Assembly: GCA_903831255.1 (NCBI GenBank)
Contig: CAIKWZ010000024.1
Coordinates: forward strand, 1 to 64,000
DNA from: an uncultured Alphaproteobacteria bacterium
Lineage (GTDB): Bacteria > Pseudomonadota > Alphaproteobacteria > Caulobacterales > Hyphomonadaceae
DNA length: 64,000 bases
Reading direction: 5' to 3'
The translations under genes and the position numbers were made by a program. Shown here in pieces: positions 7,936 to 48,793 of this stretch (within the stretch, counting starts at the first letter, position 1; every line of letters begins with the position of its first letter). The notes beneath the pieces were generated by a model, which did not search any database, was not told where the DNA came from, and worked only from the letters and a program-made list of their open reading frames with translations.

Positions 7936-10029
7936 ATGGCATTGAGCTTCATGAACAGGCTGAGCGTGCGCTCGGCGAGCGCCGTGGTGTTTCTGATGGC
8001 GAGCGCCTGTGCTCCCCGGCCAGGCTCCGAGACGGTCGAGGCATCTCTTGTTACGGCGACCAGCGAGGCGGACCACCCCGGACAGGCGGTTTATGAGCAA
8101 TGGTGCGCCTCGTGCCATGACAATCCAGAAGCCAGCCGCGCCCCGGGTCTGGACGGCATACGTGAACTCAATCAGGCGACCATCCGTTACGCTCTTGAGC
8201 TCGGTTACATGAAGTATCAGGCGCGGGATGTCCCCAAAGACGAGCTCGAACAGCTGATCGACTGGCTGCCTCAGGGCGAGGCGGAGGACGATGGATGGGT
8301 CAAATCGGCATCCTGCCCGATCAAGCGTCGCCGTGTCATTCTGGAGGGGGCCCCAAGAACGGCCGTAGCGTTCGGCATCGACCCTCATAACAATCGAAAT
8401 CAGAGCGCCGAGGCGACCGGATTGTCGGCGAAGGACATGCCCAGGCTCGAACTCGCCTGGTCGATCGCCTTTCCTAAAACGCCGACCATGCGCTCTCAGC
8501 CTGTCGTGGTGGGAAACACGATCTTCATCGCCGCGACCGACGCCGGGCGTCTCTACGCGCTCGATACCGACACAGGCTGTGTAAAGTGGATGTACGCCTC
8601 GGATATGACGCTGCGCTCCTCTCTGGCCTTCGCCGAGGGTGTCAACGGCGCCCCGGCGTCCATTCTCATGGGCGACGCGGCAGGGCGCGTCCATGCAGTC
8701 AATGCGACAACCGGGGCCAAGCTCTGGGTGACCGATGTCAAGCTGACCGACGTCAACCGCGTCACAGGCGCGCCGGTGGTGCTCAAGGATCGGGTCTACG
8801 TCCCCGTGTCGGCGATCGAGGTCAACTTCACGCAGTTTGATGATTACGAATGTTGCAAGGGACAGGGAGCTGTCGTCGCTCTCAACCTGACCACCGGCGA
8901 CAAGGTATGGACGGGCAGGACCATGCCGGAGGCGACCCCGCAGCTGATCAGCAAGGCCGGAACGCAACAATGGGGCCCGTCCGGCGCCATCATCTGGTCC
9001 ACTCCGGCAATCGACGAGAAGCGGGGCGTGCTCTACGCGGGTTCCGGTGAAAACACCTCCTGGCCTGCAACCGATACCTCGGACGCCATCATCGCCTACG
9101 ACCTCCAGACGGGAGATCGTCGCTGGACCTTCCAGGCGACCGAGGCCGACATCTGGAACTATGCGTGCGGTCGGGGCGGGGCGAACTGCACCTACCCGGG
9201 CGAGTATCACAGCCCGGACTTCGATTTTGGAGGCTCTGCCCTCCTCGCCAAGACCCCGTCCGGTCGTGAGCTCATCGTCGCCGGCCAGAAGTCCGGAGTT
9301 GTCTGGGCCCTCGATCCGGATCGCAGCGGCGAAGTGGTTTGGTCCAACCGTATCGGCCGCGGGGCCGCCAACGGCGGCATTCACTGGGGCATAGCGTTTG
9401 ACGGGAAGCGTATCTTCGCCCCGCTGAATGATCCCAACTCAAGCTATCCCAATCCGAACTGGGGGCCGGGCATTCACGCACTGGATGTGGAAACCGGCGC
9501 TATCGTGTGGAGCTACAAGCCGACCGCCGCAGACTGCGATGCGGACGTCGAACCGGGCAAAACCACCCGCCCGGCCCCGGAGTTCGTGTTGAACCCGATC
9601 GCCGCCCCGATCAGACCGCAGTCGCGGCAGGTCTGGGAGAGCTGGCCGCCCGGAACCCTCGCCGCCGCACCCCAGAGGCCCGATGTGTCGCCCTCCGCGG
9701 GGAGCGCAACTCCGCCGCCCGCAAGACCGGCCCGTCCCTGCCGACTTGGAATGTCGCCGGCTCCTCTGGTCGTCGACGGCGCCGTTGTCACAGGCACCAT
9801 TCAGGGAATGCTCAGGATCTTCGACGGCGCATCCGGGGAGGTGCTCTTCGAGTATCAGACCAACAAGCCCTACCCGGACACGGTCAACAAGATTGAAGGA
9901 CATGGCGGAGGCATCGACAGCCATCCGTACGTAGCCGCAAACGGCACTCTGTTCGTCCAGTCCGGCTATGCGCGGTTCGGAGAGCCGCCAGGAAACATGC
10001 TTCTCGCTTTCAAACCGAAGAAGGACTGA
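7936..10029 (+). CDS. quinohaem (PQQ plus cytochrome c) dehydrogenase, polyvinyl-alcohol-dehydrogenase-like
   Basis: A 697-residue exported protein. The leader ends in LMASAC, so it may be a lipoprotein. A cytochrome c domain carries the haem site CASCH at residues 57-61. The rest is an eight-bladed PQQ propeller with repeated blades such as GRLYALDTDTG, GRVHAVNATTGAKLW, GAVVALNLTTGDKVW, IIAYDLQTGDRRW and IHALDVETGAIVW. The domain order matches polyvinyl alcohol dehydrogenases, which oxidise secondary alcohols and pass electrons to the internal haem. A Pro/Arg-rich stretch around 9600-9745 interrupts the last blades and is unlike the rest. The substrate here is unknown. The 3' end overlaps the convergent GT87 gene by 20 bases. 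Confidence 0.85.
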   Translation: MALSFMNRLSVRSASAVVFLMASACAPRPGSETVEASLVTATSEADHPGQAVYEQWCASCHDNPEASRAPGLDGIRELNQATIRYALELGYMKYQARDVPKDELEQLIDWLPQGEAEDDGWVKSASCPIKRRRVILEGAPRTAVAFGIDPHNNRNQSAEATGLSAKDMPRLELAWSIAFPKTPTMRSQPVVVGNTIFIAATDAGRLYALDTDTGCVKWMYASDMTLRSSLAFAEGVNGAPASILMGDAAGRVHAVNATTGAKLWVTDVKLTDVNRVTGAPVVLKDRVYVPVSAIEVNFTQFDDYECCKGQGAVVALNLTTGDKVWTGRTMPEATPQLISKAGTQQWGPSGAIIWSTPAIDEKRGVLYAGSGENTSWPATDTSDAIIAYDLQTGDRRWTFQATEADIWNYACGRGGANCTYPGEYHSPDFDFGGSALLAKTPSGRELIVAGQKSGVVWALDPDRSGEVVWSNRIGRGAANGGIHWGIAFDGKRIFAPLNDPNSSYPNPNWGPGIHALDVETGAIVWSYKPTAADCDADVEPGKTTRPAPEFVLNPIAAPIRPQSRQVWESWPPGTLAAAPQRPDVSPSAGSATPPPARPARPCRLGMSPAPLVVDGAVVTGTIQGMLRIFDGASGEVLFEYQTNKPYPDTVNKIEGHGGGIDSHPYVAANGTLFVQSGYARFGEPPGNMLLAFKPKKD

Positions 10030-28683: not shown

Positions 28684-28848
28684 CGCAGTCTTCCGCTTCA
28701 CAGGGCCCGCGGGCTATTCCCCGCACGCGCAGACGGTCGGCCGTAGACAGTGACGTGTCAAGCGACCGCGGTTCAATATGCACCCTGGGTGTCGTATACT
28801 CGGCACACGTCACGACGTAGAAACCAGTGGCGGCCAAGGAAGGGCGGG

Positions 28849-29910
28849 ATGATGAGGCGTGAACGCGATACGATCCCAAATCGTCAGGGACGGACAAGGC
28901 CTTATGCGATCGGCCTGACCGTTTTGGCGCTTTCAGGGCTGGCGTCGACCGTGCTTCCCATCCAAGACGCATCGGCCGCGCCGCCCGTCCCGCCGGAATG
29001 GACGCCGCCCCGGGCCGCCGACGGACGACCCGATCTTCAGGGCGTATGGACAAACTCCTCCATCACCACCCTCGAACGTACCGATCCGTCGTTACCGCTG
29101 AGACTCTCACCGCAGCAGGCTGAACGACTTGAGCAGTCGCGGGCGAGACTTGAAGCAGCCGCCAACGCCCCGACCAACCCTCAGGAAGGCGCTCCGGACG
29201 CCGGCGCTTCAGTGGGAGGATATAACGCGTTCTGGCTGGATCGGGGATCAAGGGTCGGCGTCGTCAGGGGCGAGGCCCGGTCGTCATGGATCGTCGAACC
29301 GGAGAACGGCCGCATGCCCGTCTCGGAAGCCGGCGCCGCGCAGATACGCTCCATCCTCAAAAGACGCGGAGAGGACGGTCCCGAGGGAATGAACCCGGCA
29401 GACCGCTGCCTAGTCGGCAGTCGAGGCTCCGGCGGGCCTCCCATGCTGAACAATATCTATAACAACACCTATCAGATCGTTCAGACGACCGATCACGTCG
29501 TGATCCTCGTTGAGATGATGCATGACGCCCGAATTATCCGACTTAACGAGGGCCATAAGGCTCCAGAGCTTAAACAGTGGCATGGGGATTCCATCGGTCG
29601 CTGGGACGGCGACACGCTGGTTGTCGAAACCCGCCACTGGAAGGAGGATCATGCATCCTACGAGCCGGTCGTCCTCTCCGATACAGCGCTGGTGACGGAG
29701 CGCTTCACCCGCTCCGGGCCCGCTGAAATTCTCTATGAATTCACGGTAGATGATCCCCAGACCTATTCGCGGCCCTGGCGAGGGGAAATGACGTTCACTC
29801 CCTCGGGCGGCCCTGTGTTCGAATATGCCTGTCATGAAGGCAACTACGCCCTGCACGGCATTCTTTCAGGCGCCAGAGTTCTCGAAGGCCGCCTGAAGGC
29901 TCAGGAGTGA
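28849..29910 (+). CDS. exported protein of unknown function
   Basis: A 353-residue protein with a hydrophobic N-terminal segment (YAIGLTVLALSGLAST) and a likely cut near ASAA. Recurrent features known from uncharacterised proteins in sphingomonads and Acidobacteria are RAADGRPDLQGVWTN, ADRCLVG, NNTYQIVQT, GRWDGDTLVVETRHW, the ERFTRSGPAEILYEFTVDD strand pair, and EYACHEGNYALHGILSGAR. The pattern suggests a beta-rich binding fold. No function is known to me. An AAGGAAGGG ribosome site fits either of the two adjacent ATGs (28849 or 28852). Confidence 0.75.
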   Translation: MMRRERDTIPNRQGRTRPYAIGLTVLALSGLASTVLPIQDASAAPPVPPEWTPPRAADGRPDLQGVWTNSSITTLERTDPSLPLRLSPQQAERLEQSRARLEAAANAPTNPQEGAPDAGASVGGYNAFWLDRGSRVGVVRGEARSSWIVEPENGRMPVSEAGAAQIRSILKRRGEDGPEGMNPADRCLVGSRGSGGPPMLNNIYNNTYQIVQTTDHVVILVEMMHDARIIRLNEGHKAPELKQWHGDSIGRWDGDTLVVETRHWKEDHASYEPVVLSDTALVTERFTRSGPAEILYEFTVDDPQTYSRPWRGEMTFTPSGGPVFEYACHEGNYALHGILSGARVLEGRLKAQE

Positions 29911-42834: not shown

Positions 42835-44643
42835 ATGACCCCCCGCGACAAAATTCGAAACTTCTCGATCATCGCCCACATCGACCATGGAAAGTCGACG
42901 CTGGCGGACCGTATCATTCAGATGACAGGCGGCCTCGCAGCACGCGACATGGTCGACCAAGTCCTTGATTCTATGGATATAGAACGGGAAAGAGGGATCA
43001 CCATAAAGGCGCAGACCGTTCGGCTCGACTATACTTCGAAGTCGGGCGAGACGTTTGTCCTGAACCTCATGGACACGCCCGGCCACGTCGACTTCGCCTA
43101 CGAAGTCTCGCGGTGCCTCGCCGCCTGCGAGGGAAGTCTTCTGGTTGTGGACGCGTCGCAAGGGGTCGAAGCTCAGACGCTCGCGAACGTTTACAAGGCC
43201 ATAGACCAGAACCATGAAATCGTGCCGGTTCTGAACAAGATCGATCTGCCGGCTGCCGATGTGCCGAGGGTCCGAGCTCAGATCGAGGATGTCATCGGAA
43301 TTGACGCATCGGACGCTGTCGAGATTTCCGCTAAGACAGGGTTCGGCGTCGACGCGGTTCTAGAGGCCATCGTTAACCGATTGCCGGCGCCCGCAACCGG
43401 CGACGCGTCCCAGCCGCTCAAGGCGCTCCTCGTTGACGCCTATTATGATCTTTATCTGGGTGTCGTGGTCATCATCCGGGTGGTCGATGGGTCGGTACGG
43501 AAACGACAGAAGATCAAGATGATGAAGACCGGGGCAACGTACGACCTCGACCGGGTCGGCGTCTTCAGGCCCGGCCGCCTTGCGGATATCGATGAACTGG
43601 GCCCGGGCGAAGTGGGCTTCTTCACCGCCTCGATCAAGGCGGTCGCCGACTGTTCGGTCGGCGACACCATTACCGATGAACGACGACCGACCGACGCGCC
43701 GCTTCCGGGGTTTCGCGACGTGCAGCCGGTGGTTTTCTGCGGCCTCTTTCCGATCGATGCGGCCGAATTCGAAGATCTCAGGACAGCCATGGGAAAGCTC
43801 AGGCTGAACGATGCGAGCTTCACCTTCGAAATGGAGACAAGCGCCGCTCTCGGCTTCGGTTTCCGATGCGGGTTTCTGGGACTGCTGCATCTCGAGATCA
43901 TTCAGGAACGCCTCTCCCGAGAATTCGACCTCGACCTGATCGCGACCGCTCCTTCGGTGGTCTATGAAATCCATATGTCCGACGGCACGATGCATGAGCT
44001 GCACAACCCAGCGGACATGCCCGATCCCGTAAAGATCGCGGAGATCCATGAGCCCTGGATCGAGGCGACAATCTTCACCCCGGACGAATTTCTGGGTGGA
44101 ATTCTCAAACTCTGCCAGGACCGACGCGGAGTGCAGAAAGAGCTCTCCTATGTCGGCGCCCGCGCGATGGTGAAGTATGAGCTGCCTCTCAATGAGGTGG
44201 TGTTTGATTTCTATGATCGCCTGAAATCGATCTCCAAAGGCTACGCCTCCTTCGACTACTCGATGATAGGTCATCGGCTGGGGGACCTCGTGAAAATGCA
44301 GGTTCTCGTCAATGAGGAGCCGGTCGACGCCCTGTCGATGCTTGTTCACAGAGCCAGAGCCGAAAGCCGCGGCCGCGCCATGTGCGAAAAACTCAAAGAC
44401 CTCATCCCACGCCACATGTTCAAGATCCCGATCCAGGCGGCGATCGGAGGACGCGTCATCGCCCGGGAAACCATCTCGGCGATGAGAAAGGACGTCACGG
44501 CGAAATGCTATGGCGGCGACGCCACGCGTAAACGAAAGCTCCTCGACAAGCAGAAAGAGGGCAAGAAGCGCATGCGCCAGTTCGGCAAGGTTGAGATCCC
44601 TCAGGAAGCGTTCGTGGCGGCCCTCAAGATGGACTCGGACTAA
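42835..44643 (+). CDS. lepA: elongation factor 4 (back-translocating GTPase)
   Basis: A 602-residue translational GTPase. The G motifs [25 protein letters not shown] and NKIDLP are intact, followed by EF-G-like domains and the unique C-terminal domain with [19 protein letters not shown]. It acts on stalled or mistranslocated ribosomes. ATG at 42835. The 228-base gap behind it contains the GH16 promoter region but no other gene. Confidence 0.98.
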
Positions 44644-44779: not shown

Positions 44780-46429
44780 ATGATGAAGCGTCTGGCGATG
44801 GCGACGTGGCTTGGGGTCCTGGCGGCCGGTTGCGGCGCGCCGCAAACATCTCAGCCCTGGACGAAGACGGAATTCGCAGGTCCCTCTCCATTCCATGGTC
44901 TCCATGGCCTGGCCATCGCTCCCGACGGACAGATCCTCGCAGGGAGCGTTGTCGGTCAGACGATCTACTCCGTCGATCCCGCCACCGGCGTCGTCACTGA
45001 GAGACTGGGGCCTCCGAACGGCATGGCGGACGACATCGCCTTTGGTCCCGACGGGGTCATGGCCTGGACCGGGTATCTGACGGGAAAAGTGTTCGTCCAG
45101 ATGCCGGGAGCGGAACCGAAGATGGTCGCTTCGGGGCTTCCGGGGGCCAACTCCCTGGCCTTCACGACGGACGGCCGGCTCTATGTCACGCAGGTCTTCC
45201 TTGCCGATGCTCTTCACGAAGTCGACTGGAAGGGCGACGCCGGAGCGCGCCTCATCGCCGAAAATCTCGGGGGATTAAACGGCTTCGAAATCGGGCCGGA
45301 TGGCATGATCTATGGCCCGCTCTGGTTCAAAGGCGTCATCGCCCGTGTCGACCCTGCGACGGGAGAGGCGACCCCTATCGCCCAGGGCTTCCAGGTCCCG
45401 GCGGCCGCCAATTTCGGGCCGGACGGAAAGCTCTACGCGATCGATACAAAGACGGGAGAGCTTAAGTCAGTCGACATCGCCACCGGCGCGACCTCCGTCA
45501 TTGCGACACTCAGCCCCTCTCTGGACAATCTCGCCATAGCAGACAGCGGTCTGATCTATGTCTCGAACATGGCCGAGGCGGCGATATTTGAAGTCAACCC
45601 TGCGACCGGAGCGGTGCGAACCGTCGTCAGCGGCCCGCTTTCGACGCCGACCGACATGGTCGTCGTCAACGGCCCCAATGGCGAGAGCCTCCATGTCGCC
45701 GATGTCTTCGCCTATCGGACCATCAACACTGCGACAGGGGACATCAGAGATCCGCTTCGCATGTACCGTGACCCGGTTGAAAATCCTCTCGGGATCGGCG
45801 CCGGCCCTAACCGCGTCGTGATCACCAGCTGGGCAGCCGGAACGGTCCAGATCGTGGAGATTGCATCCGGCGCCGCGTCGGAGCCCATCCATGGTCTGAC
45901 CACCCCTGTCGACGGCCTTGAACTCACCGATGGAAGGGTCGCCGTCCTTGAGAGCTCTACCGGTCTCATTCGCATTCTCGAAACCCCTCAGGGCGAGCCG
46001 GCCCGCCCTGCCGACGAGCCTCTCGCGACTGGCCTCAATCTCCCTGCGGCAATGGCTGAAGGTCCGGACGGCATGATTTATGTGACGGAAACCAATCCCG
46101 GCGCCATCGCTCGGGTCGACCCGGCAAACGGCGAGGTTACCCGCATCGTCTCAGACCTTCTTGGACCTGAGGGCATAGATGTCGGGCCCGACGGCCGTAT
46201 CTATTTCGCCGAAGTCGGCGCCAGCGCGGTGAGGGTTTTCGATCCGTCCGACAAAACCACAACGACGATAGGGGAAGGACTCGAGGTCGGCTTTCCGGCG
46301 CCGGAAGGGGCTCTGCCGGCCTACGCGACCACTGGCGTCGCCCTCTCGAAGACGTCCGGCTCCGTCTATGTCTCATCCGATATCACGAATTCCATTTACC
46401 GGTTCGATCCGCCACCCGGACGTCCGTAA
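44780..46429 (+). CDS. beta-propeller lipoprotein (SMP-30/NHL-like)
   Basis: A 549-residue exported protein with lipobox LAAGC. It is built of propeller blades: HGLHGLAIAPDGQILAGS, GMADDIAFGPDGVMAWTG, GANSLAFTTDGRLYVTQ, NGFEIGPDGMIYGPLW, AANFGPDGKLYAIDT, and more to GPEGIDVGPDGRIYFAEVG. Enough blades exist for two propellers. Similar folds include gluconolactonases, virginiamycin B lyase and NHL proteins; the catalytic set of none is clear. An AGGGAAGAC ribosome site precedes two adjacent ATGs at 44780 and 44783. Confidence 0.82.
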   Translation: MMKRLAMATWLGVLAAGCGAPQTSQPWTKTEFAGPSPFHGLHGLAIAPDGQILAGSVVGQTIYSVDPATGVVTERLGPPNGMADDIAFGPDGVMAWTGYLTGKVFVQMPGAEPKMVASGLPGANSLAFTTDGRLYVTQVFLADALHEVDWKGDAGARLIAENLGGLNGFEIGPDGMIYGPLWFKGVIARVDPATGEATPIAQGFQVPAAANFGPDGKLYAIDTKTGELKSVDIATGATSVIATLSPSLDNLAIADSGLIYVSNMAEAAIFEVNPATGAVRTVVSGPLSTPTDMVVVNGPNGESLHVADVFAYRTINTATGDIRDPLRMYRDPVENPLGIGAGPNRVVITSWAAGTVQIVEIASGAASEPIHGLTTPVDGLELTDGRVAVLESSTGLIRILETPQGEPARPADEPLATGLNLPAAMAEGPDGMIYVTETNPGAIARVDPANGEVTRIVSDLLGPEGIDVGPDGRIYFAEVGASAVRVFDPSDKTTTTIGEGLEVGFPAPEGALPAYATTGVALSKTSGSVYVSSDITNSIYRFDPPPGRP

Positions 46430-46705: not shown

Positions 46706-48694
46706 ATGAAGTTCGGGTTGTTGGGCCTTGCGCTATCGGGATGCGCCGCAGTTGCGCTGATCGGAGTGGCCGCCAATAGTCAAACACTGCGTCCAGCGGC
46801 AGCCACCACTCAGATCCGGGTGCCCGAGCGCGTGGATAACTTCCGACTGACCGACCATCTCTCAAAGTCGCACGAGCTGAGATATTTCAAGGACGCAGCT
46901 GCAATCGTCATCGTGTCCCATGCGGCCGGATCGAAGCATGTTGCGGACGCCGTTCCGACACTGAACGCGCTCAAGGCCGGTTACGATTCGAAGAACGTCC
47001 AGTTCTTCATGTTGAATTCGAACCTTCCGGATACGCGCGAGACAGTCGCCTCGTCCGCTACAGCGAGCGGACTGACCATCCCGGTCCTCCTCGATAGCGC
47101 CCAATTGGTCGGCGAAAGCCTCGGCGTCAGCCGGACCGCTGAAGCCTTCGTCATCGACCCCAAGTCCTGGAAAGTGGTCTATCACGGCCCGATCGATGAC
47201 CGTTTCGCGGGCAAAGCCCCGAAGGGTCAGGCGAAGGCCGAGACCGCCTACCTCGCTAACGCTCTCGACGACATTCTCGCAGGGCGGTCAGTGAAAACCG
47301 CCTCTGTTCCTCTGCAGTCGCCTGCCCTGTCCTTTCCGGACAGAGACAGGCAGAGCGATTTCGTGAACATCTCATACGAAAAGCAGATCGCGCCGATCCT
47401 CGCTGAGAACTGCGTGGCCTGTCATACCGAAGGCGGGATCGGCCCCTTCGCGATGACCAGCTACGAGATGGTCAAAGGGTTCGCGCCGATGATTCGCGAA
47501 GCGGTCAGAACTGACCGTATGCCGCCCTATCAGGCGGATCCGCATATCGGCGCCTTCTCAGACGACATGAACCTCTCGGTCTCTGAACAGAAGACCCTCG
47601 TTCACTGGATTGAGGCGGGAGCTCCGCGCGGCAAAGGAAGCGATCCGCTCAAGATAAACGCCAAGGCTGCGCCGGAATGGGAGCTTGGAGAGCCGGATCT
47701 GGTTCTGACGCTCCCCGCCTACAAAATACCAGCCTCGGGAATCGTCGATTATCAGAACCCGGTGCTCAAGAACCCTCTGACTGAGGGGAAATGGCTGCGT
47801 GCCTCGACCATCAAGGTCGGAGACCGTCAGGCCGTCCACCACCTTCTCTCTCCCGTCGGCGGTTACGCAGTGGGCGCAGAATCGAACGTTTATCCGGCAG
47901 GGACTGGAACCTGGGTCGAACCTGGACAGACGCTCCGCTTCCAGCTGCACTACACCCCCTACGGGAAAGAGACGACCGATGTCACTCGCATCGGCCTCTA
48001 CTTCCATAACGACAAAGCGCCGCCGACGATCGTTCGTCGGTCCGCAGTCATCGCAAATGCAGGGATCGAGATCCCGGCCAACTCCGCACGCCATGAGGAG
48101 ACGGCCTACATAACCTTCCCGGCGGATGCGACGCTGTATTCGGTGTTCCCGCATGCGCACTACCGAGGGGAAAATGCCGCCGTCTGGATGCAGAAGCCAG
48201 GTCAATCAGAAGAACTGATCCTCGCCCTCCCCAAATACGACTTCAACTGGCAGAGGGGCTATGAGTTCAAGACCCCGATCCAGGTTCCGGCAGGAACGAA
48301 GCTGATCACTCGCTATCAGTATGACAACTCTGCTCGCAACCCGGCCAACCCTGATCCCTCGATCAAGGTGACATGGGGTGAACAGTCCCACGAGGAAATG
48401 CAGTACACGGCCCTCAGTTTCCGCTGGAACGACGAGACGGCCGCTTCGCAGAAGCCGGAGCACATGGAGAAACTGAACGCTTCGCGTTCAATCGGCATCA
48501 TGGACAAGAACCTTGATGGCCAGGTCGCCCGAAACGAAGTCAGAGGGCGGATGGGCCAGATGGTCCTCGCCAACTTCGAAAAGCTCGACGCAGACAAGAG
48601 CGGCCAGCTCTCTGAAGCCGAGCTTGGCCAAGTGACGAGAATGATGAACCGAGCCATCGAAACCGCTCAGGCGCAGCAGAGCATAGGACAGTAA
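46706..48694 (+). CDS. exported multidomain copper/haem protein (redoxin fold, CxxCH, PHM-like monooxygenase, EF-hands)
   Basis: A 662-residue exported protein with four parts. Residues 35-195 look like an AhpC/TSA-type thioredoxin fold, but the active-site cysteines are missing (VSHAAGSKHV). A c-type haem site CVACH sits at 236-240. Residues 310-590 match the two cupredoxin-like domains of copper type II ascorbate-dependent monooxygenases, with every ligand in place: H378, H379 and H415 for one copper, H483, H485 and M565 for the other. The tail has two EF-hand loops (DKNLDGQVARNE, DADKSGQLSEAE). It probably hydroxylates a substrate outside the membrane with electrons from the haem. It is followed by a strong terminator. 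Confidence 0.82.
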   Translation: MKFGLLGLALSGCAAVALIGVAANSQTLRPAAATTQIRVPERVDNFRLTDHLSKSHELRYFKDAAAIVIVSHAAGSKHVADAVPTLNALKAGYDSKNVQFFMLNSNLPDTRETVASSATASGLTIPVLLDSAQLVGESLGVSRTAEAFVIDPKSWKVVYHGPIDDRFAGKAPKGQAKAETAYLANALDDILAGRSVKTASVPLQSPALSFPDRDRQSDFVNISYEKQIAPILAENCVACHTEGGIGPFAMTSYEMVKGFAPMIREAVRTDRMPPYQADPHIGAFSDDMNLSVSEQKTLVHWIEAGAPRGKGSDPLKINAKAAPEWELGEPDLVLTLPAYKIPASGIVDYQNPVLKNPLTEGKWLRASTIKVGDRQAVHHLLSPVGGYAVGAESNVYPAGTGTWVEPGQTLRFQLHYTPYGKETTDVTRIGLYFHNDKAPPTIVRRSAVIANAGIEIPANSARHEETAYITFPADATLYSVFPHAHYRGENAAVWMQKPGQSEELILALPKYDFNWQRGYEFKTPIQVPAGTKLITRYQYDNSARNPANPDPSIKVTWGEQSHEEMQYTALSFRWNDETAASQKPEHMEKLNASRSIGIMDKNLDGQVARNEVRGRMGQMVLANFEKLDADKSGQLSEAELGQVTRMMNRAIETAQAQQSIGQ

Positions 48695-48715: not shown

Positions 48716-48752
48716 AAGGCGGGTGGCCCGAAAAGGCTCACCCGCCTTTTTT
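48716..48752 (+). terminator. rho-independent terminator after the copper/haem gene
   Basis: AAGGCGGGTG (48716-48725) pairs perfectly with CACCCGCCTT (48739-48748), with an inner GCC/GGC pair in the loop, and runs into six T in a row (48747-48752). It separates this gene from the ABC exporter that starts at 48794. Confidence 0.9.
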
Positions 48753-48793
48753 GATGGACGGACCGCTGTTCTGACAGGAGCCTAGAGGTCGTC

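Follow-up and report, generated by a model that had tools for sequence, protein, structure and literature searches.

An exported bacterial protein that appears to join a c-type haem to a PHM/DBH-type dicopper region

We found a gene for an exported redoxin–cytochrome c–PHM/DBH-type dicopper–EF-hand protein (46706..48694, plus strand; 662 aa, ATG start) in a 64,000-nucleotide stretch of DNA from an uncultured alphaproteobacterium of the Hyphomonadaceae (hereafter the window). By its predicted fold and ligands, this protein is a member of the PHM/DBH superfamily of copper type II monooxygenases, yet it is neither PHM nor DBH. The two-copper domain is known from the animal enzymes that make hormones and noradrenaline, where it is driven by ascorbate. 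With a probability of roughly 0.55, we propose that the window protein is a periplasmic PHM/DBH-type dicopper monooxygenase, which would be reduced via its own c-type haem and would take part in the oxidative catabolism of a small molecule.

Results

The protein differs from its nearest ortholog (95% identity) at 31 of 662 residues, and the gene shows a dN of 0.025, a dS of 0.616 and a dN/dS of 0.04 in this comparison. It is a real gene under strong purifying selection. Most of the changes fall in the redoxin part and only one in the EF region. In an alignment of 79 homologs, reaching down to 43–45% identity, C236, C239, H240, M262, M272, H378, H379, H415, H483, H485, M565, D600, E611 and D628 are invariant in all sequences. 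The AlphaFold2 model of the whole protein, based on this 79-row alignment, has a pLDDT of 88.5 and a pTM of 0.84. An earlier note on this DNA had described a single exported protein with four parts, and a signal peptide, a Pfam redoxin domain, a CxxCH motif, the copper fold and the EF loops were all found. Script checks showed that the residue positions named in that note are all correct and that C13, C236 and C239 are the only cysteines. The domain assignments are not due to chance, because the ligands are invariant in the 79 homologs and the Foldseek search aligns the model with DBH and PHM. The parts of the gene described below, the hairpin that follows it and the propeller gene before it lie on the plus strand.

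The two-domain PHM/DBH-type copper region comprises residues 319–582 (47660..48451), as delimited by a separate model and PDB matches. The earlier note had listed six copper ligands, and these align one-to-one with those of rat PHM, whose sequence was taken as a segment from a printed match alignment. The CuH ligands are H378 and H379 (47837..47842), corresponding to PHM H107 and H108, and H415 (47948..47950), corresponding to PHM H172. The CuM ligands are H483 and H485 (48152..48160), corresponding to PHM H242 and H244, and M565 (48398..48400), corresponding to PHM M314. All six were confirmed by structure prediction, the fold search, the PHM alignment and their invariance, and none of the 79 aligned homologs lacks them. 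A profile of the copper region matched DBH in the PDB (E 0.003), with H415, H483 and H485 falling on DBH histidine residues. The whole model gave human DBH (E 7.2e-14) and rat PHM (about 1e-12) in a Foldseek search against the PDB. The structure prediction that the earlier note had called for thus returned a two-domain PHM/DBH fold with the predicted ligands in register with PHM. Modelled alone, the copper region reached a pLDDT of 90.6 and a TM score of 0.74 to DBH (E 5.5e-14), and its best 31 Foldseek matches in the PDB are all DBH or PHM. Cu2_monoox_C (PF03712) scored 22.4 bits on the whole protein, just under the cut-off of 23, and 24.5–25.4 bits, above it, on the domain alone. The N-terminal Pfam model (PF01082) found no match in the window protein and matched one of 40 family members at E 0.034; the fold and the ligands of the N-terminal copper half were found although PF01082 fails. 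The overall rmsd of the model to PHM is about 4–8 Å, so the two copper domains may be set at a different angle to each other. PHM-type disulfides are not possible in the window protein, which has no cysteine in residues 240–662.

We then considered the haem. The cytochrome c domain (approximately residues 206–318; 47321..47659) is helical in the model, and the Pfam cytochrome CBB3 match on the window protein is weak and below the cut-off. The haem-attachment motif CVACH is present at residues 236–240 (47411..47425), as the earlier note had read it, and CxxCH is invariant in 79/79 homologs. The invariant M272 (47519..47521), which lies in an RMPP motif, is a candidate distal haem ligand. The predicted features of a c-type cytochrome are therefore present, namely CVACH in an exported domain and M272 as a candidate axial partner. 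In a distant proteobacterial genome, the copper profile also finds a protein of 414 aa (L144 1387-2631; G194 C189), in which a cytochrome c domain directly precedes a PHM region with all ligands, and which has no redoxin domain and no EF-hands. This protein matches both PF01082 and PF03712 (PHM match E 2.8e-7) and keeps the DEMC motif. Such a short protein occurs in one of the 61 genomes searched around G194. Its gene adjoins a TonB receptor-like gene and a gene for an ASPIC/VCBS-like repeat protein, both named from sequence only. That a haem–copper fusion exists without redoxin and EF-hands makes it more likely that haem and copper are functionally linked. It is plausible that the haem replaces ascorbate as the electron source of the copper site, since the haem motif is invariant and this shorter fusion exists. 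Ascorbate does not usually occur as a metabolite in bacteria. This, the fact that CxxCH and M272 are never lost in the 79 homologs (Alpha- and Gammaproteobacteria included) and the retention of haem and copper in the shorter relative all speak against a reading to which we give a minor share of belief. According to it, the protein would be a PHM/DBH-type monooxygenase whose c-type haem is a sensor or a structural unit, and the electrons would come from small reductants (quinols or ascorbate-like compounds), as in animals. Its support comes from animal PHM, whose CuH ligands and ascorbate requirement are documented and which is driven by ascorbate with no linked haem (PMC6123673).

The N-terminal and C-terminal parts were investigated in the same way. 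Residues 1–33 (46706..46804) form a Sec-type signal peptide according to the sequence and the alignment, and residues 1–32 have low pLDDT. C13 of this peptide forms an LSGC motif; a lipoprotein reading is unlikely for the window protein, as orthologs lack this cysteine. A redoxin/AhpC-TSA-like domain follows (approximately residues 42–205; 46829..47320). AhpC-TSA (PF00578) matches residues 42–153 with 31.3 bits against a cut-off of 26, and Redoxin (PF08534) is also above its cut-off; the two matches span residues 42–160. Foldseek places this domain on the thioredoxin-like structures 3U5R and 2CVB (TM by target 0.78–0.79). No redox-active cysteine was found in residues 14–235. The earlier description of a thioredoxin-like part without active cysteines is therefore borne out by Pfam and Foldseek, with the refinement that 31 of 79 homologs keep one cysteine, in the motif GCPIVR. 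This cysteine is missing in the window clade, so its loss is, as judged from the alignment, a trait of that clade and not of the whole family. A stand-alone redoxin lipoprotein of the same subfamily with one cysteine (GCPIVQ) is encoded at G000:C9:41622-42182 (L043 8551-9222), next to two same-strand genes for TonB-dependent receptors; in L059, the window ortholog also has a related receptor gene nearby. At the C-terminus, two canonical DxDxDG...E calcium-type loops were located where the earlier note had seen them, as checked by script and alignment: loop 1 at D600–E611 (48503..48538), with D600 and E611 invariant, and loop 2 at D628–E639 (48587..48622), with D628 invariant. The Pfam EF-hand match on the window protein is weak and below the cut-off.

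The combination of these domains could also be read, though we consider this improbable, as a periplasmic redox or copper-handling protein (a Sco-like or thiol-redox helper, or an O2/copper sensor) that is no oxygenase. Cytochrome oxidase assembly likewise brings together redoxin, haem c and copper, and many paralogs are lipoproteins, with clear lipoboxes in the alignment. However, the active cysteines of the redoxin part are absent in the window protein and number at most one in its relatives, unlike those of Sco or ResA, and the copper region has the oxygenase fold with two copper sites, including the catalytic CuM set His-X-His...Met. Each genome has five or six diverged paralogs, and these, together with their IorAB and acyl-CoA gene neighbours, point to catabolism over assembly.

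The source genome contains six copies of the architecture and one stand-alone redoxin; one of the six copies is cut by a contig end, with its N-terminal part outside. We found the family in 26 of 101 relatives, including all members of the genus, and in only two or three of 399 genomes evenly sampled from the phylum. The earlier note had suggested a search for the same domain order and its gene neighbours in other genomes. Scanning the genome collection with a pattern gave at least 576 family loci, and members of the family turned out to be tied to a molybdenum hydroxylase and a propeller gene. The best 80 of these at least 576 loci are mainly alpha- and gammaproteobacterial. They include Phenylobacterium, Hyphomonas, Hyphomonadaceae, Henriciella, Aquisalinus and Parvularculaceae, as well as the marine gammaproteobacterium HTCC2143, Halieaceae, Cellvibrionales and other proteobacterial MAGs. 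No match to the family was found among the plasmids in the collection. PF03712 was rejected as a family probe, as at E 0.001 it misses both G077 copies that the family profile finds. In the tree, the window clade adjoins a sister clade of paralogs. One copper gene copy of G023 (L155 8797-10676) appears as two separate matches that part near the middle and may be a pseudogene or reflect a sequencing error.

We next investigated the genetic loci of the copper genes. Just upstream of the window gene lies a gene for a 549-aa SMP-30/NHL β-propeller lipoprotein (44780..46429; Pfam SGL), a probable functional partner judging from the gene context in relatives. The longest possible start of its reading frame, at 44510, is unsupported by homologs and is probably wrong; the homologs and the lipoprotein signal indicate a start at 44780. 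Propeller copies of at least 63% identity are found in 12 genomes (that of the window counted), all of which carry copper genes, and in 10 of the 12 the propeller lies within 800 bp of a copper gene. The propeller precedes a window-clade gene in G000 and G014 and follows a copper gene of a different clade in the other genomes. This occurrence beside two paralog clades, in two gene orders, argues for a functional tie.

The lyase half of PAM is a six-bladed zinc β-propeller (PMC6529398), which makes the propeller neighbour intriguing. Together with the PHM fold, this neighbour would fit a peptide-modifying enzyme like animal PAM, in which hydroxylation of a peptide is followed by cleavage catalysed by the propeller; we consider such an activity very unlikely. 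The candidacy of the propeller as a true PAL was rejected: what the propeller profile finds are generic NHL and SMP-30 propellers, and the best 60 of 233 PDB matches do not include PAL. In PHM, R240 binds the peptide carboxylate. The window protein has no arginine near this position (none in residues 476–482), which speaks against C-terminal amidation of peptides; of the other residues of the PHM site, N316 is unmatched and the alignment of Y318 is ambiguous.

A second conserved neighbourhood belongs to the sister paralog. In L038, L109, L121/L153, L159 and L162, iorA-iorB precedes a copper gene of the sister clade, all in the same orientation; IorAB is not beside the window gene. Among 17 relatives whose IorB has at least 69% identity, 15 have a copper gene 168–508 bp downstream of iorB and in the same orientation; the counts are small and ignore kinship, and 15 of the 17 IorB genomes represent one genus. 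The exceptions to this order are G009 and G011, and all 17 genomes carry the family. IorB is a molybdopterin-binding hydroxylase of the isoquinoline-1-oxidoreductase type, whose sequence reads as having an N-terminal twin-arginine motif and a lipobox. At G000:C69:3839-8805 (L038), the conserved iorA, iorB and copper gene are followed by genes for an ABM-domain protein and an acyl-CoA dehydrogenase. This cluster looks like a catabolic operon around the sister paralog. Genes for FadD, ECH and 3HCDH occur near several paralogs and in none of 20 control regions (small counts, kinship ignored), while acyl-CoA dehydrogenase genes showed no enrichment near copper genes, being equally frequent in the target and the 20 control regions. 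The ortholog in G008 is flanked by genes for a TonB-dependent receptor and an acyl-CoA ligase. These flanks and the ECH, FadD and 3HCDH genes near paralogs suggest that a compound is imported from outside and catabolised. The gene-context evidence gave no substrate clue peculiar to the window paralog.

Directly 3' of the window gene, an intrinsic terminator-like hairpin with a U tract (48716..48755; −43.8 kcal/mol over 81 nt, z −6.3), missed by a simple terminator scan, separates it from a downstream ABC transporter. This ABC-2 transporter was rejected as a partner. It lies beside most orthologs, but so do LepA, 3-hydroxyacyl-CoA dehydrogenase and other unrelated genes; the terminator stands between, the G008 ortholog lacks the transporter, and the arrangement looks like ordinary synteny. 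Another neighbour family (fam16; L121 8819-9916) recurs near copper genes, but it is uninformative because three of the four genomes checked have 19–32 copies. In the window it is represented at 28750–29910 by one member; the proteins of this family are exported and about 366 aa long, with 19 copies in the source genome and 32 in G023, and the L121 representative has no Pfam match. The window further encodes a PQQ-type dehydrogenase with an N-terminal cytochrome c (7936–10029), whose relatives cluster with a copper gene and two genes for DUF6644 membrane proteins in L071, L073 and L089.

Discussion

In our preferred reading, a haem-reduced copper monooxygenase, electrons would reach the c-type haem from the pool of periplasmic cytochromes or from a partner dehydrogenase, and the haem would feed them one at a time to CuH in the place of ascorbate. 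CuM would then activate O2 and hydroxylate a C–H bond of a small molecule, which is probably hydrophobic or heteroaromatic, and the product would pass to IorAB or to the propeller protein. Calcium in the EF-hands may stabilise the fold. The redoxin domain would be a binding or scaffold module; that it binds a partner or a substrate, as the earlier note had it, is a guess. For the sister paralog, the Tat-exported IorAB-type molybdenum hydroxylase could pass its two electrons to the haem, and for the window paralog, the SMP-30-type propeller could act on the hydroxylated product. Each paralog probably acts on a substrate of its own during oxidative catabolism. A bolder version, which we regard as unlikely, is a two-step pair with the logic of animal PAM, built from different parts. 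Here the product of a haem-wired PHM-type enzyme would be hydroxylated, as a carbinol or in the manner of a hemiaminal, and the neighbouring SMP-30/NHL propeller lipoprotein would break it down; with the sister paralog, IorAB would supply the electrons, one oxidation paying for the other without NAD(P)H.

Work on PHM/DBH-type copper monooxygenases has dealt almost entirely with animals, in which these enzymes depend on ascorbate. In the open-access literature, with most subscription journals outside it, we found no paper on bacterial PHM/DBH homologs or on this domain order, and the relevant papers on the fold all concern eukaryotes. This agrees with the earlier view of a little-described system. 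Judged from sequences and models, what is new here represents a bacterial, multi-paralog, haem-fused form of the PHM/DBH superfamily with conserved gene partners. Since standard profiles score the copper regions at about the cut-off, many members are presumably annotated merely as redoxin or thioredoxin proteins. If our reading is true, a large bacterial family with its own haem would represent another way to power this copper chemistry, provide simple models in which to study how electrons pass from one copper to the other, which is an open question, and form a further class of periplasmic oxygenases able to attack difficult C–H bonds. With a molybdenum hydroxylase and a propeller protein as conserved neighbours, the search for substrates becomes practical.

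Among known systems, PHM (PDB 1PHM, 1OPM and 1SDW) shares the two-domain fold and has all six copper ligands in register. In contrast to PHM, the window protein (about 15% identity) lacks a PF01082 match, cysteines in the copper region and the arginine at the peptide-carboxylate position, and it is bacterial, predicted to be periplasmic and fused to redoxin, haem c and EF-hands. DBH (PDB 4ZEL) is the best PDB match, with a TM score of 0.74 over the copper region and 18% identity, but the added domains differ: a DOMON domain is present in DBH, which is driven by ascorbate. The one-Cys thioredoxin-like proteins 3U5R, 2YWI and 2CVB resemble the N-terminal fold (TM by target 0.73–0.79); the cysteine that they carry in a CPFV-type motif is absent in the window protein and present in 31/79 relatives. 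Isoquinoline 1-oxidoreductase IorAB is a candidate partner of the sister paralog and not a homolog of the copper protein. The short L144 protein differs from the window protein in lacking redoxin and EF-hands, and is like it in the order of cytochrome c and PHM-type copper region.
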